Below, piece by piece: positions 15,068-30,881 of a stretch of DNA of 32,123 bases. Below the pieces are notes generated by a model. That model did not search any database. It saw only the letters and a list, made by a program, of their open reading frames with translations, and was not told where the DNA came from. Every line of letters begins with the position of its first letter. Position 1 is the first letter of the stretch. The position numbers were made by a program, and so were the translations under genes. The DNA is from an uncultured bacterium (GTDB lineage: Bacteria; Cyanobacteriota; Vampirovibrionia; Gastranaerophilales; Gastranaerophilaceae): contig ONTD01000018.1 in NCBI GenBank assembly GCA_900320675.1, forward strand, positions 1 to 32,123, read 5' to 3'.

Positions 15068-15087
15068 CACCAACAAATACTATTTTA
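15060..15087. terminator. AT-rich hairpin covering both convergent stop codons
   Basis: TAAAATAG (15060-15067) pairs with CTATTTTA (15080-15087) across a 12-nt loop. The left arm ends with the rpe TAG and the right arm contains the TAG of the opposite AsmA-like gene. The stem is short, AT-rich and lacks a T-run, so a terminator role is doubtful. Confidence 0.25.
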
Positions 15088-18000
15088 CCCACTTAAAACT
15101 TTTAACGTAAGTAAATCCGTTTATATCACCGTCAATAAGTACTGCAAAAATTCTTGATATTGTTGCATCTGGATACTTAGGAATTTTATCAATCTTAGCC
15201 TCAACCTCAGGAGACAATTCTGTATTTTTCAAAAACGGAATCGTATTCAGTAATGTATTTAGAGAAAGATTTTTTAGTTTACCAAATACAGAGGTTAAGT
15301 TTGTGGAAAGAGTACCATACACTTCCATCTTTGCTATATAAGTCTCAAGATTATATGAACCGTTCAAAAACAGACTTAAATCTTTACCCATTGAATAAAC
15401 TTCTATATTATTAACCTGAGTACCATCTAAATCAAATTTACCTGTAATACTTTTAAATTCTCCTGTCTTTAAAGGAGTAATCAGGTCAATTATATTATTA
15501 ATCGATATACGAGTAATCCCGCTAGTAACAATATTTGTAGCTTTTAATAGGTATTCCAAAGAACCTAATTTCGGCATTCTGCCATCAGTAATTATAAAAT
15601 TGCCGTTTCCGGAAAGAGTTTTCATACAATCTTCTTGATTTAAGCCGGTACATTTTATATTTAATTTTCCGTTTGCAGTACCAAAGAACTGACTCTTCAT
15701 ATTGAATAATGATTCCGCTATAGATTGAGCATTAAATTTATTTATGTTCACATGAAAATCTAACTTATTTGACTGCAAATTGTACGTACCGTTTCCGTCC
15801 GCAGAACCTTCTGCCAATTTTAGGATATAATCTTTTATTTTTAAAATTTTCTTGCTGTCTATTGAAAAATGAGCCAAAAAATCAGTTGCATTCAGTTCTT
15901 GAATTTTTATTTTATCAGCAGTAATTGAACCTGATTTTACTATAACATCTGTAGTATTAATATTTTTAGCGTTTTCATCAACCCCAAGATGTTGTTTATA
16001 TAATGTAGCATCATAATCGTGCGCCGCATTAGATATCTCGTTGAAATCCAACAAATCACAATGTACTTTTAAATTATTTATCACGTAAGGCGGAGTAAGT
16101 TTATTTTTTATAACAGCATCTACGGATATATTACTATTCATAACGGAACTCGTACCTGTAACATTAATAATATCAGGTTTAAAATTAAAATTAACATCTT
16201 TTACATTAGCGTTAACCATAGGAATATCTATACCTGATATTTTAAATGTACCGAGAATTTTAGGATTCAACATTTCACCGTTAACAGTTAAATTTGACAT
16301 GAAAGTTCCCTGCTTCATAAACGGCTTTTTAAAAATTATATTAAAGATTTTTGCATCTGTCGGAGTATTGGTTTTGACCTTAAAATTATTAAAGCGCATA
16401 TTATTATTCGCAAGAAGTTGAATTCCTCCACTGGCAGTCAATTGAGTATTAGGAATTTTTCTGCCGTTCTGAGAAGTAATAATTTTGTCGTATTTAAAAC
16501 TGTTTAACTTTACCCAATCTTTGCCGGACAAGCTATCAATGTCAATAGCAACTCCATGAATTAAATCCCCTATTGTTGCTCCCATATAGTATATTGACGA
16601 ATTCTTGTCAAGCTTCAATTCCGTTTTTGCATTTAATTTGTTTATTGAACCGCTTAATTTAGAAGATAAAATTGCATCCCCTTTTAATTTTATCGGATAA
16701 ACAGATTTCGCATTAAAGAACTGATCAAAAAATTCTTGAGTAGGCTTTGCATTACAGTAAATATTTAAATCCGGATTGTCCGTGGATACACCGGATATTT
16801 TACCGTTTAGAAATACCGGCATATCGCCCGCAAGAGCATTTATACGATTTAAATTAAGGTTATCGTCGTCATACAAAGCATTCCCGTCAAGAATTTTTAT
16901 TTTCATGATTTTTGGTTTGTACACAAAACTAATATCTGAAAGTTGTGTAAATACTCTTATATTATTATTTTTAATTTTTGAAGCAATATCAACAAAACCT
17001 TTAAACTGCCCAAATTCATTGAATCTTGGTAATTCCGGAATTTCCAACTCGTTTAATGCAGACAGGTCAAATTTTTTCATTGAAAAATAACCGTTATATG
17101 CCTGTTTATCGGTCATAATATTATCAACATCGACTTGCAAATTAAACGGATTATTCTTTAAAGTACCCTTAATAGGAGAAACATGTACATGTCCGTTTTT
17201 AACATTAAACTCACTGTTATTTACAAGAATAGGAGCCTTTGATCCATAATTACTATAAATTCTTCCTTTTGCAACAATTTTACTGTAATCAAATTTATCA
17301 ATATTTATAACCCCTTTATAGTGTCCTGAAAAAGAGGTGTTAATGCTACTTAATCCCGGAATAGGTATGATTTTATTTCCGTAAAATAATTTTGCAATTT
17401 TCCATCCGTCATATGCACTAAATTTATGAGAATATGCATTTGCAGTCAATACATTATTTTTAATAAACCCATTTGCAGTTATCGGAGAATTTACAAGATT
17501 TGCATCAATTTTAAAGCTACCGTCATTTTTATCAAAATTTACAATCCCGTTTATATTAGATGCAGGAACTTTTTCGGGGAAAAATGTCATTGAGTTGGAT
17601 AAAAATTCTATCCAACCTTTAGCAAACAAATCCTTATTAAATACAGGCTGCACTCCCCTGTTTACATGCCCGAATACCGTAATAAAGACCTTTGTCTTAC
17701 CGTTTGCTGATGTAATCGGAGAAAGCATATGCTGTAACTCTTTAAGAATTGGTGAAGTATTCACGATTTTTAATAAATCCTGAGAATTTTGTCCGTCTCC
17801 TTTTACATCAACAGACAAATCGCCTTTCATAGTACACTTTCCGTTAACATCAACCGGCAAACCGTTTAGATTCAAAGAAGTTGTTTTAAAATCAACATCA
17901 TCTCCGTCAAATTTTACCCAGCCTGCAACATTTTTTGCAACCATATTATTTATTTCAATAAACGATGCGGTTCCGTTTCGAAAATTTATCTGTCCCCACG

Positions 18001-19528
18001 CATGAGGGTCCTGTTTTGTTCCGGAAATTCTAAACGCGGCATTTCCAAATCCGGCCGGAACATCCATCATCGGAACAGGTCCGAGCTCAAATTTAAATAT
18101 CTCCCTCAACGGCATTAAAACTTTTTTCGCTTTTACCAAATTTATATTTTTAGTTGTTTTAATATCCAAATCAGAATATCTTTCTCTAAATAGCTTAAAA
18201 GAACCCTTTACATCAACATATTCGTTTGGATCGGTTAAAACATGGGCATCCAGCTTCATGGTATGTTTGTCAAAATTAAGTTTTATCAAAGCATTTTGAG
18301 GTGCATCTTTAATAGGTTCAACAAGATACACATCCGTTAATAAAACATTTCCGTACAAATTCGGGTAATCCGCATCACCTACAATATCGAGATTTCCCGT
18401 AGCATTTCCGTATATAGTGTGTTCTTTTAATTTTCTGAAATTGAAATCCGGATTTAAGTTTTCATCCCCCGGAAAGAGAGGTATTATATTTTCCCCTCTT
18501 GCATGGTTTACGGTTGCTTTTAAATCCAGTTTCGGAAATTTTGCACCTGTCTTATACACGCCGCCGGAAAGCATTGCATCTATACCCTTTGAAAGAATTT
18601 TAAAATTATTTATTTTGACACCATCATTAATTACATTTACATCACTCGTAATATTGAGCGGATTATCACAATATATTGAAGTATCCTTAGTATCAAGCAT
18701 CACCGCAAGCTTGTCTATACTTATATTCGATTTTATGTTCTTGTGTCCGTGAGACTTCTTCGTTTTGGAAGTATAATTTACAATCCCGCTTAAATTTTTA
18801 ATTTTACCTTTTGTAAGAGTCTTAGCATATTCATTAAACTCCGACAAATCCAAATCTTTTAGACTTACGTTTAGTTTTATCTTATCCTCGGAAACCTTCT
18901 GTAAAGGCAAATCTAAATCAACATCCGCAATTAATTTTGAAATTTTATCTCCAATTAATAATTGTGAATCAGTAGAAAAACTAATATTTTTATTTGCTTT
19001 GTAATTATCTATTTTAAAATAACTACCGATTAATTTTATATTTTTATTTTGGACTTCATCATTCAAAGAAATATCGTATTTACCAAGATTTGCTGACAAT
19101 TTTTCAAGAGTAAACTTAGGATTGTTCTGCAACTTTATCGGGTATTGTCCCAATTTAAAGTTATGATTTTTATCGTAAATCACATTCGCATACAGTCCAT
19201 CAGCTTTTAATTTTGAAATATTAATATTCTTAAATAGCAACGGAATTAACTTAATATTAATATAAGGTCTGTCGATTGCCATAGCCTTGGTATTGTCATC
19301 ATTTAACACATTTAATTCTTCAGCTCTGAAAATTATAGAAGGAATAATGCCAGCCCTAATTTTAGGATTAACTAAGTCAACCTTATAACCCGCCATATTT
19401 TGTATTGTTCTCTCAGCAAAATTTTCGAATTTTGAATTATTTAAGGCTAAAGGAATCCCCAACAAATACCCGCCATATAATATAGCGGTACAACTTAATA
19501 TAATAATCGCTGCAATTTTTCTCTTCAT
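15080..19528 (-). CDS. Very long AsmA/YhdP-like envelope protein
   Basis: A 1482-aa protein with one N-terminal membrane anchor (residues about 4-27) and a very long periplasmic region of repeated beta-strand units (recurring patterns of the type NGxxxGxxxNPxLD). The C-terminus fits an AsmA-like domain: LSGNGNFIITDGRMPKLG, GEFKSITGKFDLDG, and a final amphipathic segment. AsmA, YhdP and TamB proteins are bridge-like proteins linked to lipid or outer-membrane protein traffic between the two membranes; which subgroup this belongs to is uncertain. No Shine-Dalgarno precedes the ATG, and the promoter lies so close that the leader is only about 4 nt. Its presence supports a diderm cell. Confidence 0.82.
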   Translation of the reverse strand: MKRKIAAIIILSCTAILYGGYLLGIPLALNNSKFENFAERTIQNMAGYKVDLVNPKIRAGIIPSIIFRAEELNVLNDDNTKAMAIDRPYINIKLIPLLFKNINISKLKADGLYANVIYDKNHNFKLGQYPIKLQNNPKFTLEKLSANLGKYDISLNDEVQNKNIKLIGSYFKIDNYKANKNISFSTDSQLLIGDKISKLIADVDLDLPLQKVSEDKIKLNVSLKDLDLSEFNEYAKTLTKGKIKNLSGIVNYTSKTKKSHGHKNIKSNISIDKLAVMLDTKDTSIYCDNPLNITSDVNVINDGVKINNFKILSKGIDAMLSGGVYKTGAKFPKLDLKATVNHARGENIIPLFPGDENLNPDFNFRKLKEHTIYGNATGNLDIVGDADYPNLYGNVLLTDVYLVEPIKDAPQNALIKLNFDKHTMKLDAHVLTDPNEYVDVKGSFKLFRERYSDLDIKTTKNINLVKAKKVLMPLREIFKFELGPVPMMDVPAGFGNAAFRISGTKQDPHAWGQINFRNGTASFIEINNMVAKNVAGWVKFDGDDVDFKTTSLNLNGLPVDVNGKCTMKGDLSVDVKGDGQNSQDLLKIVNTSPILKELQHMLSPITSANGKTKVFITVFGHVNRGVQPVFNKDLFAKGWIEFLSNSMTFFPEKVPASNINGIVNFDKNDGSFKIDANLVNSPITANGFIKNNVLTANAYSHKFSAYDGWKIAKLFYGNKIIPIPGLSSINTSFSGHYKGVINIDKFDYSKIVAKGRIYSNYGSKAPILVNNSEFNVKNGHVHVSPIKGTLKNNPFNLQVDVDNIMTDKQAYNGYFSMKKFDLSALNELEIPELPRFNEFGQFKGFVDIASKIKNNNIRVFTQLSDISFVYKPKIMKIKILDGNALYDDDNLNLNRINALAGDMPVFLNGKISGVSTDNPDLNIYCNAKPTQEFFDQFFNAKSVYPIKLKGDAILSSKLSGSINKLNAKTELKLDKNSSIYYMGATIGDLIHGVAIDIDSLSGKDWVKLNSFKYDKIITSQNGRKIPNTQLTASGGIQLLANNNMRFNNFKVKTNTPTDAKIFNIIFKKPFMKQGTFMSNLTVNGEMLNPKILGTFKISGIDIPMVNANVKDVNFNFKPDIINVTGTSSVMNSNISVDAVIKNKLTPPYVINNLKVHCDLLDFNEISNAAHDYDATLYKQHLGVDENAKNINTTDVIVKSGSITADKIKIQELNATDFLAHFSIDSKKILKIKDYILKLAEGSADGNGTYNLQSNKLDFHVNINKFNAQSIAESLFNMKSQFFGTANGKLNIKCTGLNQEDCMKTLSGNGNFIITDGRMPKLGSLEYLLKATNIVTSGITRISINNIIDLITPLKTGEFKSITGKFDLDGTQVNNIEVYSMGKDLSLFLNGSYNLETYIAKMEVYGTLSTNLTSVFGKLKNLSLNTLLNTIPFLKNTELSPEVEAKIDKIPKYPDATISRIFAVLIDGDINGFTYVKSFKWVK

Positions 19529-20327: not shown

Positions 20328-22556
20328 TTAATCTCTTCTGATATTTAATAGCATTTCGTTCGGAATAAATACATCATTTAAACCGACTGCAGCATTTACA
20401 AACACAAATTCCATATTTTCTTCATGATTTATATCTAAACTGTCAAACGGTATTTGTAAATCTATAACTTTATCAAATACAAATTTTATATCTTTTGAAC
20501 TGCCCAATGCCCACAAATTATTCGGAATAGATTTGATTAACCTGACAAACTTTAATTCCCCATGGATCAATGAAATTTGTATTTCATTATGAAATTTTTG
20601 CTTCGTTATAGGTAAAACATCGTCAGTTTTATTTATCAGTCTAATCGGAGACAAGGAATGTTTTTTTGAAGAATTACGGGTATAAACATACATTTGGTAA
20701 ATCCAATTTTTTGTAACCGGATTAGATAAAACGTAATTGTTAACGTAAAATCTTAAATATAAATTATCCTTGTCATAACCAAAACATATCCTGTCAAAAA
20801 ATTTATTTTCCTTTAAAACAGGTCCGTCCGGAATATCAATACATCCCGCATTAATCCAAGAATCATCATCTTCTTCCCCGTCAATAAGCGGTTTAATTTC
20901 ACCTTTAGGATATCTTGACGGCTTTGTCGCCATAGATAGCAACGGTTCATCCAAATATTCAGGAGGTTCTAAACCTAAATATACGTAAACATTTTTTAAA
21001 TGTTCCCTAAATAAGTAGTCGAAAATGTTATCACGTCCGGAATCGTTTGGTTCTCCGTACCACCAAAACCAATCACTGCCTTCACAAATAAATAATTCCT
21101 TTTTTGCATCTTCTATATGCATATTAAGAGGATGCTGCTTTACAAACTTTGAAAAATCGTCTCTTACATTTTTTAAATATTGCCAAGCTAAATTTTTAAT
21201 AGGCTCATCTATCCATAATTTAAAATTTCTGTTTATCCAAGAACCTGCCTGTATTTTATTTAATGGTTTATGATTTTTTTCTTTGTCTAAATACTCACTT
21301 ATTAAAACTGTTTCTAAAGAGTCATCTTCCGATATTAGCTTATACAAAGTATTTAAGAAAATATTGCCGTCTTGAGGGTAATTTTCCCAACAATTTTCAC
21401 CATCCATAGCGATCGTTAACAAATGATTTTCATCAGGAGAGGACAATAATTTACTTTGCATTACCTTTATTCGTTCATACAAATCTTTAGCCGCCAATTC
21501 CGAATCAAAATTCGGATATTCAAAACTTATCAAATTAGAAATCATTGAATTTCTGAATATCATTTTAACTCCGGATTTATGCTCATAAGATTTCACCAAA
21601 TGATAAGGTTCTTCCATATACCCCTTAAAATCACGGATAAATTCAAAATTTATGGAGCTTGCAAGTATACCTTCATCAGATATAGACCAATCAACTCCCA
21701 ATGATTTAAATAATTCCAATTCTTGCGAACTGATACAATGCTCAGAAGGCCATATCCCCCTCGGACGCACACCTATTAATTCTTCAATTCTGTCTAAGGC
21801 AGCTTCTGTTTGCATTTTAGCGTCCAAAGACATTTTTAAATTTGATGGCAAGCCCTCTTTATTTGAAATGTTTGCAGAATTTATATCCAATAATATCGGT
21901 AAAATCGGGTGATAATACGGACTTGTTGTAACCTCAACTTTACCTCGCTCAACAAAATCTTTATACGTAGGAATAATTTTTCTTATTATATCACGCTGCA
22001 TCTCAATTATTGTGCATCTGTCTTCATATGTGTAATTTTTTCCCTTTTTCAAAAGCTTTTTGAGTAACGGGTAATCCTTTACGTAAACCGGATCAAACCA
22101 AACCATATTAAACAATGCCATCAAATCGGAATATTCTTGATCTGTGAACGCATTTACATCAACCTCTCTAAATGATTGGCGCTTCTGAAACAAACGGTTA
22201 TACTCAGGATAAGGATAAATCATCGTTTTATAATTTGCATCAAAAAAATTATTTAATATAAATTCCTTATCCTCGTCATTTAATTCTTCTATCGGAGTAA
22301 CAGTTAACCGTGAATGCAGGTCATGAGCACCTTTAATTCCGTAATCTATAAACGCATCCAATAACACCGGTACCAAATTTACGTTGACCTTTATATTTTT
22401 ATAATTATCGGTTATCGTAATCATATCAAGATAATCTTTTACCGCATGCAGCCTCACCCATGCCATCAAGTAATCACCATCAGGCGAAAGCTGGTACACA
22501 GGTTGATGCATATGCCAATAGAACGCAATTGATAATTTTTTTGTATTACTCATCAT
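20328..22556 (-). CDS. Glycoside hydrolase family 57 protein
   Basis: GH57 enzymes act on alpha-glucans (amylase, amylopullulanase, 4-alpha-glucanotransferase or branching enzyme). The 742-aa protein has the conserved N-terminal WHMHQPV (14-20), SPYYHPILP (212-220), the nucleophile region GIWPSEHC with Glu272, and the acid/base region IAMDGENCW with Asp385. After the catalytic barrel and helical domain, residues from about 565 to the end form a beta-rich accessory module (KPLIDGEEDDDSWINAGCIDI onward). No signal peptide, so it probably works on cytoplasmic storage glucan. The exact activity cannot be assigned. GGAG lies 12 nt before the first of two consecutive ATGs, so either could be used. 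It has its own promoter. Confidence 0.9.
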   Translation of the reverse strand: MMSNTKKLSIAFYWHMHQPVYQLSPDGDYLMAWVRLHAVKDYLDMITITDNYKNIKVNVNLVPVLLDAFIDYGIKGAHDLHSRLTVTPIEELNDEDKEFILNNFFDANYKTMIYPYPEYNRLFQKRQSFREVDVNAFTDQEYSDLMALFNMVWFDPVYVKDYPLLKKLLKKGKNYTYEDRCTIIEMQRDIIRKIIPTYKDFVERGKVEVTTSPYYHPILPILLDINSANISNKEGLPSNLKMSLDAKMQTEAALDRIEELIGVRPRGIWPSEHCISSQELELFKSLGVDWSISDEGILASSINFEFIRDFKGYMEEPYHLVKSYEHKSGVKMIFRNSMISNLISFEYPNFDSELAAKDLYERIKVMQSKLLSSPDENHLLTIAMDGENCWENYPQDGNIFLNTLYKLISEDDSLETVLISEYLDKEKNHKPLNKIQAGSWINRNFKLWIDEPIKNLAWQYLKNVRDDFSKFVKQHPLNMHIEDAKKELFICEGSDWFWWYGEPNDSGRDNIFDYLFREHLKNVYVYLGLEPPEYLDEPLLSMATKPSRYPKGEIKPLIDGEEDDDSWINAGCIDIPDGPVLKENKFFDRICFGYDKDNLYLRFYVNNYVLSNPVTKNWIYQMYVYTRNSSKKHSLSPIRLINKTDDVLPITKQKFHNEIQISLIHGELKFVRLIKSIPNNLWALGSSKDIKFVFDKVIDLQIPFDSLDINHEENMEFVFVNAAVGLNDVFIPNEMLLNIRRD

Positions 22557-22584: not shown

Positions 22585-22614
22585 ATTATAACACCGACAG
22601 ATTACAATTGTAAA
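22585..22614 (-). promoter_or_regulatory. Promoter of the GH57 gene
   Basis: On the - strand TTTACA (22614-22609), an 18-bp spacer and TATAAT (22590-22585) lie in the 61-bp gap after the 819-aa gene. The -35 overlaps a 12-bp palindrome (TTACAATTGTAA, 22602-22613) that could bind a regulator. Confidence 0.6.
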
Positions 22615-22617
22615 TAT

Positions 22618-25077
22618 CTATGCTTTTATTACCTGTTTAATTCTGTTATTGCTGCTCGCAAACGGAATTTCGTCCTCGTCTTTGATTTCTTGAATTTCTT
22701 CTTTTATATCACTCTTGCTCACGTCATAAGACTTAATTGAGCGTTTTCCGGTAAGTCTTTGCATAAAGTTGTAATAGCCTTTCAAGAAACCGGTAGCATT
22801 ATCCTGTTTTTCTTCCATCTTTAACAACTCATCTCTTGTATGAGCGCCAACCGCAACACCTACTGATTTTCTTGTCAACCATTCACCCATTGTCGTATTA
22901 GTCAGTGTAATCCAAGTCATACCAAATAAAGACTTGTTGTACTGATTTCTGAATGTACTGTTAAACAAGTCAATCAACAATGTCTGATAGAACAACCTTG
23001 AACCTTCTTGAACAAATCTTTCTTTAAATTTAGTTTGAGCACCCTCTACATCGTTACCGTTTGACTTTAACATAACCATATTGTAATTATCAGTCATCAA
23101 GAACCAAAGTGTTGCTGCCGTGGCCGCCGTCTTTGCAAGATTTGACAACTCAGCATTTGAAACGTTTGACATAGTATCCACATTAAATGATTTTAACAAA
23201 TTATCACAAACATAGTCATGGAATTTCTTTGCATCAAAATTCTCTTCCAATGCACGTTTCCCAATATTATCAACGCTTTTTGCCAATGCCTCAACATCAC
23301 CCACTCTGCATAAAAATTGTTTTTGTGTTTCACTCAATTTTTCAGCCGGTGTATTTTTTAATTCTTTAACAAATTTTTCAATATCTCTGGCAAAATCATT
23401 AGTTAAATTTAAATCTTTTTGCATATTTTCTGCAATTACTTTAATTGTTTTTTCATCATTTATCGGCACTTTAACCGTCTTTGGCTGATGAGTAAATGAC
23501 TTAATAGCTTTATCAACTAATCTGTAAGGTAAAGTAACCGTACTCCACGCAAATTTAAACGGAGCAATTACAAAATTTACAAGAGGTTTTACCTTCTTAT
23601 CTCTTGCACCAAGACTTATCGTACCGTCAGCATTCTGTGCATATTTTGAAACTCTTATATAATCTTCTGCAATATCCTCAGAAAATCCGTTTTCTTTTAG
23701 GACTTTTACAATTTCATCAAATTTTGTTTTATCAATCCTGTAGTCATGGATTGTTGTTAATTTATCATACAAGTTTTTAAACGGCTTGAATGATGATTTA
23801 ATTGCATTATCAATTGCACTGACTTTCCTTAATCCTTTTAATGCAAAGCCCGCAGCAATCACACCGGCAGAAGCTTTTGCTAAAGTATCTATTGAAAGTA
23901 ACGGTTTTTGTTGAGCTCTGTTGTCTGTCTTTGCTTTACTTGCAGCTTTAAATGAAGTATCAGGTTTTATATCCTTTTCCGGTGCATTATTCTTTTTATT
24001 TTCTTCCCTTGCTTCTTCCGGAGAAAGGCGTTTTATATGTTTGCCGTTAGAAAGACGTGAAACTGATTCCGTAAACAACGCCGTTAATCCTGTCGTCAAC
24101 ATTATACCGGCATTTGAATTATTCATAACCTTTTGCAACGCACCAAACGTAATCAAAGTTATATAAGCATTTATAAATATACGGCTCATTTCCTGTCTGA
24201 ACCTGATTTTCTTTTCATGTTCCGCTTTATCTTTATTATCATCCATCATTCTTGACAAGTTATATGCATCATTTGCAAGAAACAATGCAGGCGGAATACC
24301 GGAAACAATTCTGTTCAAAGATCGTTCGTGCTTTGTATCATAATTTCCGGTTTTCGGATCAAACATTTTCATTTTTCTTTGAAAAATTGCCGAGCGGATT
24401 TCTTCCTCTGTTTTTCCATCTTTTAATAGCTTTGCTCTCGTTTCGGCAAGACCTCTTAACGCACTTATTTGAGCTTCAATTTTTGACTCAGCACGTAAAC
24501 TCTTCATAAAATCAGAGTTATGAGTTTTCTCAGACCATTTTTTGAACGGCTTAATTTTGCCGACTAAATCTACAACACCGTTCAATATATCTGACGGAAG
24601 GTTCTTTAAAACAAGTCCATCACCAACTAAATGAGGGATGGACTTTTTGTGGAAAATAACTTCGCCTTCTTCAAGAGTTCTGAATAATTGCGGCATTGCA
24701 GGATCAATTTTATCAACAATTTCACCCGTTTTGATGTTAAATATCTCGCCGCCCTTTGCCTCATAGAACATCTTATGAGCAATATTTAATTTGGAAGATG
24801 CTACGTGATTATACAAATCTTCTCCCATATGCCCTAAATTCTTTTTAGCAAAATCTATTAATTCACTCTTTATATATTTATTACTCTTATTTGCACTTGT
24901 ATATAAAAAAGAACCTTTAAATGATAAATCAGTTGAATTATTATTTAAAGGCTCTTTATTTAAACGATTAATTGAAGATAGTGATACCGATTCCATGAGA
25001 GGAAATTTTCTAGGGGATATTAATCCCTCAGTTCGTTTCCTTTGAGGTATGTTAAATTCGGTTTTCCCTATCAACAT
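22618..25077 (-). CDS. Unrecognised 819-aa protein, possibly membrane-associated
   Basis: I do not recognise this protein. Residues 1-60 are a polar, Asn/Ser-rich leader ending near LSFKGSFLY. A basic helical region follows to about 300. Hydrophobic stretches occur at roughly 258-270, 300-340 (INAYITLITFGAL, AGIMLTTGLTALF) and 395-416 (SAGVIAAGFALKGL), then again in the VNFVIAPFKFAW and TAATAATLWFLM segments. Between 345 and 392 is a charged Lys/Glu/Ala linker. The C-terminus is acidic and polar. No enzyme motif, signal peptide or repeat is evident. AAGGA lies 8 nt before the ATG, and the gene has a likely promoter and sits alone after the rpoC2 terminator. Size and composition suggest a lineage-specific protein. 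Confidence 0.87.
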   Translation of the reverse strand: MLIGKTEFNIPQRKRTEGLISPRKFPLMESVSLSSINRLNKEPLNNNSTDLSFKGSFLYTSANKSNKYIKSELIDFAKKNLGHMGEDLYNHVASSKLNIAHKMFYEAKGGEIFNIKTGEIVDKIDPAMPQLFRTLEEGEVIFHKKSIPHLVGDGLVLKNLPSDILNGVVDLVGKIKPFKKWSEKTHNSDFMKSLRAESKIEAQISALRGLAETRAKLLKDGKTEEEIRSAIFQRKMKMFDPKTGNYDTKHERSLNRIVSGIPPALFLANDAYNLSRMMDDNKDKAEHEKKIRFRQEMSRIFINAYITLITFGALQKVMNNSNAGIMLTTGLTALFTESVSRLSNGKHIKRLSPEEAREENKKNNAPEKDIKPDTSFKAASKAKTDNRAQQKPLLSIDTLAKASAGVIAAGFALKGLRKVSAIDNAIKSSFKPFKNLYDKLTTIHDYRIDKTKFDEIVKVLKENGFSEDIAEDYIRVSKYAQNADGTISLGARDKKVKPLVNFVIAPFKFAWSTVTLPYRLVDKAIKSFTHQPKTVKVPINDEKTIKVIAENMQKDLNLTNDFARDIEKFVKELKNTPAEKLSETQKQFLCRVGDVEALAKSVDNIGKRALEENFDAKKFHDYVCDNLLKSFNVDTMSNVSNAELSNLAKTAATAATLWFLMTDNYNMVMLKSNGNDVEGAQTKFKERFVQEGSRLFYQTLLIDLFNSTFRNQYNKSLFGMTWITLTNTTMGEWLTRKSVGVAVGAHTRDELLKMEEKQDNATGFLKGYYNFMQRLTGKRSIKSYDVSKSDIKEEIQEIKDEDEIPFASSNNRIKQVIKA

Positions 25078-25240: not shown

Positions 25241-28200
25241 TTATTCAACAATACCGTTATCATCAATAGTCAAGTCAGGAGCCCCAAACATACCTTCGAT
25301 TTCTTCCAAAATCGCAGATGGTTTTCTTGCTTGATTTCTCTGAGCAACAGCACGTTTTCTCGCTTCACGTTCTTTTTCTTCGTTTGCATTTGACAAGTGA
25401 TGGAATCCTGTACCTGCCGGTATCAAACGACCTATAATAACGTTTTCTTTCAAACCTCTCAACATATCTTTCTTACCGTCAACCGCAGCTTCAGTAAGAA
25501 TTCTTGTTGTTTCTTGGAATGATGCTGCCGAAATAAAGCTTTCGGTGTTCAAAGAAGCTTTTGTAATACCTAACAACATGTATTCACAAGTTGCCTTAGT
25601 ACCGCCATTCTTTTCTACCTCTGCATTTTCTTTTTCGAACAGTTGAACTTCTACAAGTTCTCCAGGAAGAAGTTTAGTATCCCCAGCATCAACAACTTTA
25701 ACCTTTTTAGTCATTTGACGGACGATAATTTCAACGTGTTTATCTGCAATTTCTACACCCTGAGAACGGTATACACGCTGTACTTCATCTACCAAATACT
25801 GCTGAGCAGCTTCCGGACCGCAAAGTCTGATTACATCATGCGGATTTAAAGGACCTGAAGTTAAAGGTTGACCTTTAGTGATTTTTTCTTTGTTATTTAC
25901 GATAATATTTGCATCGATTGCATATTTGATTTCAGTTCTGCCGTTGTCATTTACTAAGAACAATCTTGGCAAATCTTCATCAGTATCAATTTCAGCTATA
26001 CCGTCTTCTTCTGCTAAGATAGCACAATCTTTAGGCTTACGACCTTCAAGAAGTTCTTCTACTCTCGGCAAACCTTGAACGATATCACCGGTTTTCTGTC
26101 TTTCATACACAAGAGATGCTATCATATCACCCCTAAGTACCAATGCTCCGAGTTCAACAAGCAACATTGTACCAGGGCTTACCAAATAAGGACGACCTTT
26201 TCTTATTATTACTTCACCCTTATTTACTCCGATAACCTGACCGGAAGCGGTTGACTTGTCACCCTTATCAGAAATTACATCATCAATTTTAACAAAATCA
26301 CCTTTTTTAACTTTTGCTTTACCTGAAACTTTTACTTTTGCTTCATATGTTTCACTGGTTAACAATAATCTTCTTGTTTCCGATTCATTATCGTGAATTG
26401 ATGCTACACCATCATTCACTGAAAGAACTTGAGTCTTAGCAATTGGAGTTTTTGCATCAATTACTTCTCCGTCTTTTACCAACAATTCTGTCTGTAAAGA
26501 TGAAGCTAATTTTGAATTACTTTCTTGTTCACGACGAACAATTAAGTTTTCCAAAACTACAATTCTCAAATTGTTGCTGCTATCGAGTTCAACCATACCT
26601 TTAAGGTGTGACAAATACCCTTGCATTTGAAGAACCAAACTTGTTCTTGTAATAGTAGAACCGTCAAGGTTACGAACTCTCGCACCATCCTTGTATTGTA
26701 ATTGAGTTACAGGAACTATATCAATCAATTCATCTGTTGTATTAAATTTAATTGAAACTTCCTTTTGATCAACATTCAATACTTGAACAGGTCTTACCAA
26801 AATTTGAATTGGCTGATTTGAAATACTATCTTCGTCTAAATTCAAAGTAGTATCCAACTCTTCATCCAAATCATCGATAGCAATATCATCCATTGATGAA
26901 TCCATAATTGTAACGATTGATGTTTCTTTTGCTTTTACGCCATCTGCAATTACGGTACCTTTCTTAACCACTTCACCTTCATCAACCTTTAATGCACCAA
27001 CATTAGGAAGTGAATGGATTTCTCCAGGTCTTACCGTAATTTCATGTATTACGTCATTATACTCTTTGAATTCTACAATACCGTCGATATGGCAATATAC
27101 ATCTTTTACCACCTCTGTACCGGCAGTAACAAATGTTCCGTTTTCAACCATCTTCAATGATGAATCTTTTGAAATCTGGTGAATTTCTTCCGGAATAAAT
27201 ACTACCGAACCCGGTTTTGTAATAATTTGATTTTCGTCAACTTCAACATCAACGTATCTGATTTCACCGGATGAGGTAACCGCACAATCATCATCGATTA
27301 ATTCGGCGATAATCATACCGTTTTCTACCGGAGTATCAACAGGCGCTTTTACGATATATTTTTCACCTGTCTTTTTAACTGTCCAGATTTGTTCCTTCTT
27401 AGTTTGTTCAAATGTAGCATTTTCAGGTGCCAAAGAAGCAATTACAATAGTAATTTCCTTACCTTGAACAATCTTCTTAATCTTCTTACCTTCAAATTTT
27501 ACATCTTCAACGACAAGGTCTTCACCGAAACGGACTTCCCCGCCATGTTCAGAAATTGTCAAAGTTTCAGCCAATTTCTCACCTGACTTAATAGCTTGTC
27601 CGTCTTTTACAAGAACTTTGGATCCGCCAGGAAGGTTATATACATCACCGCCTAATACCCAAATAACGCCTTGTTTATTAGTTGTTCTTGAAATATTACC
27701 TTGTCTGTCTTTCTTTTCATCAGCTACGAAATCTTCAAATATTACTTCACCTGATAAATCAGTCGTAATATCTTTTGTAGCCTTTTCTGTCAAACGGGAA
27801 CCGTCTCCCTGTGATACCGGTTCATAAGTTGCAAGTTTGAATCCCTTGTCAACCTTCATGCCGTTTTCAAAAAATACCGTAGAACCTGCCGGAATATGAT
27901 ATTTTTCAGTCTTCTTGGAGCCTTTAATCTCAATATCAGCTTCATAGTTAGAAATTCTAACTACATCACCATGACGGGTTCTGAATTCTCTTGTTTTAAC
28001 ATTTGAAACGACTTCACCTGCAATAGCAGCTTCAACTGTCTTCATTGCACCTGAACCTTTGAATACACCACCTGTGTGGAATGTTCTCATGGTCAACTGG
28101 GTACCAGGTTCACCGATTGATTGAGCTGCAATAATACCGATTGCTTCTCCGATATCAACAAGCTTTTGAGTTGTCATAGCCCAACCGTAACATTTTTGAC

Positions 28201-29119
28201 AAATACCGTATTCAAGACCGCAAGTTAAACCTGAACGAACTTTCAATCCGTTTTCATTCAATTTATCTTGATTTAATCTTGAAATCTTTCTGATATCTTT
28301 TCTGTCCATCGTTGTACCGTTTGCAACTATAACGTTACCGTTTTCATCAACTATATCTTGAGCAATCGTTCTGCCCAGTAATCTATCGATCAACGGAACA
28401 ATAATTGTATCACCGTCTTTAATCGGTTTCATATTGATATATTTATCTGTATGGCAGTCATCAGCTCTGATAATAACATCTTGAGCAACGTCAACCAAAC
28501 GTCTTGTCAAATATCCTGAGTCAGCTGTTTTCAACGCAGTATCTACAAGACCTTTTCTTGCACCGTATGATGAAATGATGTACTCTGTAACGGATAGACC
28601 TTCTTTAAAGTTAGCCTTAATCGGCAAGTCGATAATTTGTCCCTGTGCATCAGCCATCAAACCACGCATACCAACTAACTGTGATACCTGTGATAAGTTA
28701 CCTCTCGCACCGGAGAACGCCATCATATATACCGGATTTAATCTGTCAAAGTTATCAACAACACTTGATGTTAACTTTGCAGTAGTTTCGGACCAAGTGT
28801 CTATAACCTTGGTATATCTTTCAACTTCGGTGATTTCACCTTTTAAATATCTGTTTGTTGATTTTTCAATCTCAACTTCGGCTTCTTTTAACAGTTCTTT
28901 CTTTACTTCAGGCACCTGCAAATCCGCAATAGAAATTGTTGTACCTGATTTGGTTGCATACTTGTAACCAAGGTTTTTCAAACTGTTAGCCAATTCCGCA
29001 GTTGTAGCACCACCAAACTCCAAATACATCTGAGATAAAAATTGGTTTAACGCCTTTTTATCCATCTGTTTGTTTATGAAGTCAAGTGTTTTCTTTGAAT
29101 TAGTATAAGTTGTTTCCAT
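25241..29119 (-). CDS. rpoC2: RNA polymerase beta' subunit, C-terminal part (RpoC2)
   Basis: The C-terminal portion of beta', encoded separately as in cyanobacteria. The 1292-aa protein (numbered from ATG 29119) has the second zinc site (Cys222, Cys300, Cys307, Cys310), the bridge-helix/trigger-loop region GEAIGIIAAQSIGEPGTQLTMRTFHTGG ending near 351, and the late conserved block QGLPRVEELLEGRKPKD near 1010. The roughly 650 residues between them match the position and size of the cyanobacterial SI3 insertion, with many short repeats of the type VKxGxxI (sandwich-barrel hybrid motifs). I place the start at METTYTN because GAGGA precedes it by 8 nt; an ATG at 29134 overlaps that site. It follows rpoC1 after about 43 bp. 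Confidence 0.96.
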   Translation of the reverse strand: METTYTNSKKTLDFINKQMDKKALNQFLSQMYLEFGGATTAELANSLKNLGYKYATKSGTTISIADLQVPEVKKELLKEAEVEIEKSTNRYLKGEITEVERYTKVIDTWSETTAKLTSSVVDNFDRLNPVYMMAFSGARGNLSQVSQLVGMRGLMADAQGQIIDLPIKANFKEGLSVTEYIISSYGARKGLVDTALKTADSGYLTRRLVDVAQDVIIRADDCHTDKYINMKPIKDGDTIIVPLIDRLLGRTIAQDIVDENGNVIVANGTTMDRKDIRKISRLNQDKLNENGLKVRSGLTCGLEYGICQKCYGWAMTTQKLVDIGEAIGIIAAQSIGEPGTQLTMRTFHTGGVFKGSGAMKTVEAAIAGEVVSNVKTREFRTRHGDVVRISNYEADIEIKGSKKTEKYHIPAGSTVFFENGMKVDKGFKLATYEPVSQGDGSRLTEKATKDITTDLSGEVIFEDFVADEKKDRQGNISRTTNKQGVIWVLGGDVYNLPGGSKVLVKDGQAIKSGEKLAETLTISEHGGEVRFGEDLVVEDVKFEGKKIKKIVQGKEITIVIASLAPENATFEQTKKEQIWTVKKTGEKYIVKAPVDTPVENGMIIAELIDDDCAVTSSGEIRYVDVEVDENQIITKPGSVVFIPEEIHQISKDSSLKMVENGTFVTAGTEVVKDVYCHIDGIVEFKEYNDVIHEITVRPGEIHSLPNVGALKVDEGEVVKKGTVIADGVKAKETSIVTIMDSSMDDIAIDDLDEELDTTLNLDEDSISNQPIQILVRPVQVLNVDQKEVSIKFNTTDELIDIVPVTQLQYKDGARVRNLDGSTITRTSLVLQMQGYLSHLKGMVELDSSNNLRIVVLENLIVRREQESNSKLASSLQTELLVKDGEVIDAKTPIAKTQVLSVNDGVASIHDNESETRRLLLTSETYEAKVKVSGKAKVKKGDFVKIDDVISDKGDKSTASGQVIGVNKGEVIIRKGRPYLVSPGTMLLVELGALVLRGDMIASLVYERQKTGDIVQGLPRVEELLEGRKPKDCAILAEEDGIAEIDTDEDLPRLFLVNDNGRTEIKYAIDANIIVNNKEKITKGQPLTSGPLNPHDVIRLCGPEAAQQYLVDEVQRVYRSQGVEIADKHVEIIVRQMTKKVKVVDAGDTKLLPGELVEVQLFEKENAEVEKNGGTKATCEYMLLGITKASLNTESFISAASFQETTRILTEAAVDGKKDMLRGLKENVIIGRLIPAGTGFHHLSNANEEKEREARKRAVAQRNQARKPSAILEEIEGMFGAPDLTIDDNGIVE

Positions 29120-29162
29120 TCTATATTTCCTCAATTTAATTTCTTTTATACATTCACTTGAG

Positions 29163-30881
29163 TTAAGCAGACAAAGCGATTGCTTTTCTTACTGTTTCGT
29201 TGAATATAATTCTACCAACGGTAGTTTCTATTCTTTCACCTTTTTCATCTCTTACGACAATCTTGTCGTGAAGCTCGATTACGCCAACTTCTAACGCTGA
29301 AATAGCGTCTTGGAAGTTGTAGAAGTAACCTTTTACAGGCATTTCAGGATTTTTAATAATAGTTAAGTAATACATACCCAAGACCATATCCTGAGATGGA
29401 GTAATAATCGGTTTACCTGTTGCCGGAGCAAGAATATTATTTGTTGCTAACATCAACATTCTGGCTTCAGTTTGAGCTTCAATAGAAAGCGGCACGTGGA
29501 CTGCCATCTGGTCGCCGTCAAAGTCTGCGTTGAACGCTGTACATACCAACGGATGAAGTTGAATTGCACGACCTTCTACAAGCTTTGGTTCAAATGCCTG
29601 AATACCAAGTCTGTGAAGGGTTGGAGCACGGTTCAATAATACCGGATGTCCGTCGATTACTTCTTCTAATATATCCCATACTATTGCTTCCGAACGTTCA
29701 ATCTTCTTCTTTGCAGATTTAATATTTTGAACGTATCCTCTTTCAATTAATTTATTTACAACAAAAGGTTTAAACAGTTCAATAGCCATTTCTTTTGGCA
29801 AACCGCACTGATTCAAGCTCAATTGAGGACCTACAACGATTACTGAACGACCTGAGTAGTCTACACGTTTACCAAGCAAGTTCTGTCTGAAACGACCTTG
29901 TTTACCTTCTATAATATTAGATAATGATTTCAACGCTCTGTTATTAGGTCCGACAACCGTTCTGCCTCTTCTGCCGTTATCGATAAGAGCATCCACCGCT
30001 TCTTGAAGCATTCTCTTTTCATTTCTTACGATAATTTCAGGAGCGCCCATTTCCAATAATCTTTGTAAACGGTTATTTCTGTTGATTACACGTCTGTACA
30101 AATCATTCAAATCTGATGTTGCAAAACGTCCGCCATCCAATTGAACCATAGGTCTCAAATCCGGAGGAGTTACAGGAAGTACATCCATTACCATCCAAGT
30201 AGGATCTGTTTCCGATGAAATCAACGAATCTAATAATCTTAATCTCTTTATTAATTTAGATTTTCTTTGAACAGAAGTTACGCCTTCATTTAATTCGGCT
30301 CTCATTTCTTCTGCCATTTTCTTAATATCAAGCTCGCCAAGCAATTCTTTAATTGCTTCTGCACCGATACCTACTTTTAATGCACTGTCTTCGTGTTCAA
30401 CCATGTAATCTTCATATTCTTCTTCGCTCAATAATTGAAGCTTTTTGAATTCTGAATCTGCAGGATCAATTACTACGTAGTTATTAAAGTAGATAACTTG
30501 TTCCAAATCTTTCAAAGTCATATCTAACAATAAGCCAAGATATGAAGGAATACCTTTCAAAAACCAGATATGAGAAACAGGAGCTGCCAATTTGATGTGT
30601 CCCATTCTTTGACGTCTGACTTTTGAATCTGTAACTTCAACACCGCAGCGTTCGCAGATAATACCTTTATGACGAACTCTTTTATATTTACCGCAATAGC
30701 ATTCCCAATCTTTTGATGGTCCAAAAATTCTTTCGCAGAATAAACCATCTCTTTCAGGTTTCAATGTACGGTAGTTGATTGTTTCCGGCTTAGTAACTTC
30801 ACCGTAGGACCATTTCAAAATCCTTTCCGGCGACGCTATACTAATTCGTATATAGTCAAAATAATCAATACTTGTTGACAT
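29163..30881 (-). CDS. rpoC1: RNA polymerase gamma subunit (RpoC1)
   Basis: The N-terminal part of beta', a separate 572-aa gene as in cyanobacteria. The first zinc ribbon is complete (C61, C63, C76, C79). The catalytic NADFDGDQM at 451-459 supplies the three Asp residues that hold the active-site magnesium. [21 protein letters not shown] and [16 protein letters not shown] are intact. It ends ([12 protein letters not shown]) about where the family splits. AGGAG lies 11 nt before the ATG, a longer gap than usual. Between rpoB and rpoC2, with 141 bp of non-coding sequence to rpoB. Confidence 0.97.

Follow-up and report, generated by a model that had tools for sequence, protein, structure and literature searches.

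Gastranaerophilales are common gut bacteria and belong to a non-photosynthetic group that is sister to the photosynthetic cyanobacteria. Two kinds of described system come closest to the 819-aa protein analyzed here. Chloroplast transit peptides with FGLK-like motifs and encapsulin cargo peptides are N-terminal targeting or docking peptides, and the leader found in Gastranaerophilales shares with them a short phenylalanine- or glycine-containing motif, a disordered tail and occurrence on unrelated proteins. However, its consensus differs from both, and its receptor is putative. Internally duplicated membrane transporters, such as membrane pyrophosphatases, are likewise helical with internal repeats, but no sequence match to the 819-aa protein was found, structural alignment gave a Z of about 4, and the hydrophobicity of the protein is weak. 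Among the titles and abstract openings listed for Gastranaerophilales and Melainabacteria, none dealt with this protein or with its leader.

The window, i.e., the whole analyzed stretch of 32,123 nucleotides (contig ONTD01000018.1), belongs to a genome of 1.69 Mb in 196 contigs. The gene occupies 22618–25077 on the minus strand, with its ATG at 25077 and its stop at 22618; read on the plus strand, the same span is full of stops. The span given in the first-pass annotation was borne out by the open reading frame and by its conservation, which goes well past what chance would give (homologues in 48 of 57 relatives), and the strand, which had been left unstated, is now assigned as minus. Upstream lie rpoC1 (29163–30881) and rpoC2 (25241–29134), split in the cyanobacterial arrangement. 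A strong terminator-like hairpin of 10 pairs on the minus strand (25219–25194) ends rpoC2 and parts the gene from the polymerase transcript. Of the separate expression signals proposed earlier, this hairpin is strong; the promoter-like sites upstream of the gene reached 9 of 12 matches at most.

Proximity to the polymerase operon, also pointed out in the first-pass annotation, applied to this window but not to the relatives. Among the best 80 of the 154 relatives found on genome contigs, rpoC2 fell within the fetched flank in four and was never immediately adjacent, being separated from the gene in all four by other genes or by 5 kb or more. There was no constant neighbor either; the commonest upstream gene took the adjacent place in 26 of the 80. 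An operon with RNA polymerase was ruled out on these counts; the gene sits elsewhere in relatives, its polymerase neighbor here is incidental, and the functional link that the annotation had implied was left unsupported. Directly after the gene, on the same strand, a glycoside hydrolase family 57 (GH57) gene (20328–22556) has its own strong promoter-like site with 11 of 12 matches at 22614–22585. Further along the minus strand (15080–19528) is encoded a 1482-aa protein with weak matches, below cut-offs, to DUF748 and YhdP (AsmA-like), possibly an envelope lipid-transfer protein. Neither tRNA genes nor Rfam elements were found in the window.

The family is confined, as far as searched, to Gastranaerophilales. 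The protein search detected it in 48 of 57 near relatives (own genome included), and the search of genome contigs showed relatives encoded in 154 of 173 candidate stretches, many of the named ones being Gastranaerophilales or Melainabacteria and the rest carrying titles of uncultured bacteria or cyanobacteria. The repeat profile described below matched 230 of 382 genomes at the level of the class and 118 of 292 at that of the phylum, and every match among those listed in these wider searches came from the same family or order. Among the listed genomes of the same family that gave no match, some genera recurred (g42, g43 and others); a further 132 no-match genomes in the class search and 154 in the phylum search stood outside those listed. 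A phage or plasmid origin was ruled out, as phages, plasmids and viral contigs gave no match to the protein. The distribution therefore upheld the earlier view of this gene as the best candidate for lineage-specific biology, the family having been confined to one order in every search made. The own genome holds a single copy. True paralogues with an SFKG-type leader exist, and the most copies in any genome were found in G032, where twelve repeat matches corresponded to six proteins of the family (L188–L193), five of them shorter, at 667–684 aa.

The absence of a recognizable domain, noted in the first-pass annotation, was confirmed: neither the whole protein nor the repeat profile gave anything above cut-off against Pfam, NCBIfam, PHROG, PADLOC or PDB sequences. 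The weak matches to FlhF (TIGR03499; 16.5 bits against a cut-off of 174) and GldL_N (PF22827; 13.9 bits with the whole protein and 17.7 bits with repeat 1, against a gathering cut-off of 24) covered short stretches below the curated cut-offs, and on this evidence neither family is a relative.

Comparison of sequence profiles showed the protein to be an internal duplication of a three-helix unit of approximately 100 aa, set in two homologous helical halves. Profile–profile alignment of residues 58–370 with residues 380–790 gave a probability of 95 and an E-value of 3.8e-8 over 148 columns, vs. 0.034 and 0.064 for reversed controls. A profile built from both repeats found exactly two copies in each of the 127 family ORFs (127/127) and none in the other ORFs of the DNA searched with it. 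The window protein itself contains a pair of units of approximately 100 aa (repeat A2), with E-values of 7.2e-36 and 2.5e-35; one more match in the own genome was weak (E 0.31) and was taken as chance. Repeat 1 (24031–24324, minus strand; residues 252–349) is a three-helix unit with D-x-Y-N, R-x-x-Q-E, N-x-S and R, and repeat 2 (22840–23145, minus strand; residues 645–746) is the best-conserved part of the protein. Across 60 sequences of the unit, D19 and R90 were invariant and N22 and S70 nearly so, the conserved polar residues being D-x-[YF]-N, [RK]-x-x-Q-E, N-x-S, R and G-x-P.

The AlphaFold2 model of the whole protein (68 sequences) showed a mostly helical body, with a mean pLDDT of 72.3 and a pTM of 0.68; residues 1–57 and 375–394 and most of 789–819 fell below a pLDDT of 50. 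A second model, of residues 391–790, reached a pLDDT of 72.6 and a pTM of 0.59, and both are of middling confidence. Foldseek found no match at E ≤ 0.001 for either model against the PDB, nor against viral models. With VIA, the whole model reached at best Z 5.2 (rmsd 5.3 over 79 residues) and the model of residues 391–790 Z 7.6 (rmsd 4.6 over 75 residues); values below 8 may reflect no more than a shared arrangement. Because these matches were weak and Foldseek gave none, no fold was named. The protein thus lacks a strong structural match, and its earlier description as being of unknown function was not refuted, although absence of a match proves nothing.

Duplicated three-helix repeats could also be inserted in the membrane as in inverted-repeat transporters, making the protein a two-fold pseudo-symmetric carrier or channel. 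The internal duplication would fit such an architecture, as would conserved polar residues within moderately hydrophobic helices and weak VIA alignments with membrane pyrophosphatases (Z 4.1 and rmsd 5.7 over 224 residues), although a Z below 8 may again reflect only a common arrangement. Hydropathy pointed both ways. A 19-residue Kyte–Doolittle window at or above 1.6, approximately the usual transmembrane level, occurred at least once in 63 of 115 distinct members, whereas the best window of the 819-aa protein was 1.42 (vs. 1.70 in rpoC2 of the same DNA window) and two or more such peaks were found in only 12 of 115 members. The repeat helices, moderately hydrophobic, also carry charged residues. 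A carrier or channel is considered rather unlikely. Of the several hydrophobic stretches reported in the first-pass annotation, what remained is a moderate hydrophobicity, with over half of the members (63/115) reaching 1.6 and this protein stopping short of it.

The N-terminal leader (24907–25077, minus strand; residues 1–57) starts with M-x-[IV] and is predicted to be disordered (pLDDT < 50). It ends in phi-[STA]-F-x-G, here LSFKG (24913–24927, minus strand; residues 51–55). After removal of identical proteins, which reduced 127 members to 115 for the motif and hydropathy counts, 110 of 115 were found to close their variable N-terminus with phi-S-F-x-G, as LSFKG or something very similar, so that the SFKG-type leader remarked on earlier is both real and conserved. 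Among the five exceptions, the ORFs read for L019, L020 and L199 do not include the N-terminus, L201 has the near miss VGFKG, and in L188 the motif is simply absent. Alignment A1 comprised the window protein and 67 relatives, i.e., the same 80 minus 12 near-duplicates and the 5′-truncated L072; F53 and G55 were invariant in all 68 rows. Position 3 was a gap in 2 rows, and 61 of the other 66 had I or V. The codon of the motif glycine was GGT in 86 of 110 members, which indicates that the peptide is kept rather than a ribosome-binding site, and an internal ribosome-binding site was ruled out on this basis. A second, looser motif, TSFKA (23944–23958, minus strand; residues 374–378), lies in the low-confidence linker between the halves. 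By the strict pattern a motif was found between the halves in 80 of 115 members, whereas the most successful of 23 permuted patterns reached 62 of 115. Several members without the strict second motif read SFKS or SFGS there, and in the G032 paralogues (L188–L193) it is absent by the strict pattern.

Sequence comparison showed that leaders of unrelated proteins also close with this type of motif. The clearest case is a DExH helicase (L225:7322-9769; G002:C1:147325-149769), which contains DEAD and DSHCT domains and has an orthologue (L265) in the own genome. Its leaders are unalignable, yet [ILV][SN]F.[GN] is kept in 11 of 12 orthologues, one of those with the motif coming from another family of the order. 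Initial scans, made with loose patterns or raw tripeptides, were noisy and showed no clear signal. In the congener G002 (1.2 Mb), a control with threonine in place of phenylalanine scored nearly equally (3.37 vs. 3.63), and a permutation test was therefore made. There, 30 of 1071 ORFs carried [ILVAT][SNT]F[KTGRSQEN][GNA] after a polar N-terminus, whereas 119 permuted patterns of the same composition averaged 13.2 (sd 3.9, maximum 23); some of the 30 read as chance matches within ordinary proteins, as this average would predict. The start M-x-[IVL]-x-x-phi was found in 10 of the 30, as compared to 59 of the 1041 others (p 6.9e-6), and several further G002 ORFs with this start have a near version of the motif ending in phenylalanine. 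At L249:10138-12618 of G002, four small ORFs lie close together, each with the same kind of leader (M[QR][IV]Q, then TPFT, TTFTN, TSFQA and TTFQG), and resemble a small cluster of tagged orphan proteins.

Enrichment was clear in one of four samples of the order. G002 showed it; the own-genome sample showed a slight excess (3 vs. 1.0 permuted, rank 8 of 120), and G017 (3 vs. 2.8) and the loci of other genera (4 vs. 4.0) showed none, nor did the outgroup G056 of the same class (1 vs. 2.1). The lack of clear enrichment in three of the four is what would be expected if the leader were a shared translation-friendly N-terminus that has no receptor, the likeness across families being compositional. 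Yet the permuted G002 controls keep composition, and the motif is conserved at the peptide level, between diverging flanks, in the 110 of 115 family members and the 11 of 12 helicases. This explanation appears quite unlikely.

Besides the helicase, the G002 proteins with the leader included an M16 peptidase and an AAA ATPase, each scoring above its Pfam cut-off, as well as radical-SAM-like protein(s) below it and an HNH protein found by a looser pattern. In a further candidate leader family, which reads like phosphoglucose isomerase, the motif is lost outside near genera. Two G002 paralogues differ from their tagged counterparts: a helicase (L148:17253-19550) has no leader, its sequence opening directly with the helicase domain, and the second M16 peptidase has a hydrophobic N-terminal segment resembling a classical secretion signal. 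The latter could suggest that the motif itself serves in protease processing or export, the 819-aa protein being secreted or surface-exposed. A polar leader that varies in sequence but closes with a short fixed motif would suit that role, and the second copy between the halves would let these be separated. Other proteins with the leader, however, are enzymes of cytoplasmic type (the DExH helicase, the AAA ATPase and, below cut-off, the radical-SAM-like protein(s)). Processing or export is held to be distinctly improbable.

We tentatively propose that the leader motif acts as a docking peptide and the protein body as a helical scaffold, a reading that we hold to be plausible, if short of probable. 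The motif would be bound by a receptor peculiar to the lineage, and this putative receptor would recruit the protein to one cellular site. There the body would serve as a non-catalytic, pseudo-symmetric helical scaffold, for which no enzyme activity is proposed, and in many relatives it may work at or near the membrane surface. In favor of this reading count the internal duplication, the peptide-level conservation of the leader motif in 110 of 115 members, its presence in the helicase orthologues, and its enrichment in G002 together with the association with the M-x-[IVL]-x-x-phi start. The family being single-copy in its own genome, yet kept across many genera, is consistent with docking and scaffolding, and the contrast with the leader-less helicase and the secretion-like M16 paralogue in G002 is consistent with docking. 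Counting against both are the restriction of clear enrichment to G002, the loss of the motif in the phosphoglucose isomerase-like family, its absence from L188, the lack of a clear membrane helix by hydropathy, and the middling fold models.

A wider form of the docking proposal, which we regard as doubtful, is that Gastranaerophilales use an undescribed two-part N-terminal address, in which M-x-[IV]-x-x-phi is followed across a polar spacer by phi-[SNT]-F-x-[GNA], to dock dozens of unrelated proteins, among them the DExH helicase, M16 peptidase and AAA ATPase, to a lineage-specific receptor. The 819-aa protein, whose duplicated helical body would come with two motifs of this kind, would then be a central scaffold of the site. 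Support for such a putative order-specific address comes from one helicase family, the 819-aa family and one congener.

Kept across much of the order and having no recognized fold, the family is a fair marker of Gastranaerophilales biology. The occurrence of a short tag on unrelated proteins is a hint that these cells direct proteins by a route not yet described. If unrelated enzymes do share this N-terminal tag, it would offer a first way into protein organization or export in Gastranaerophilales.
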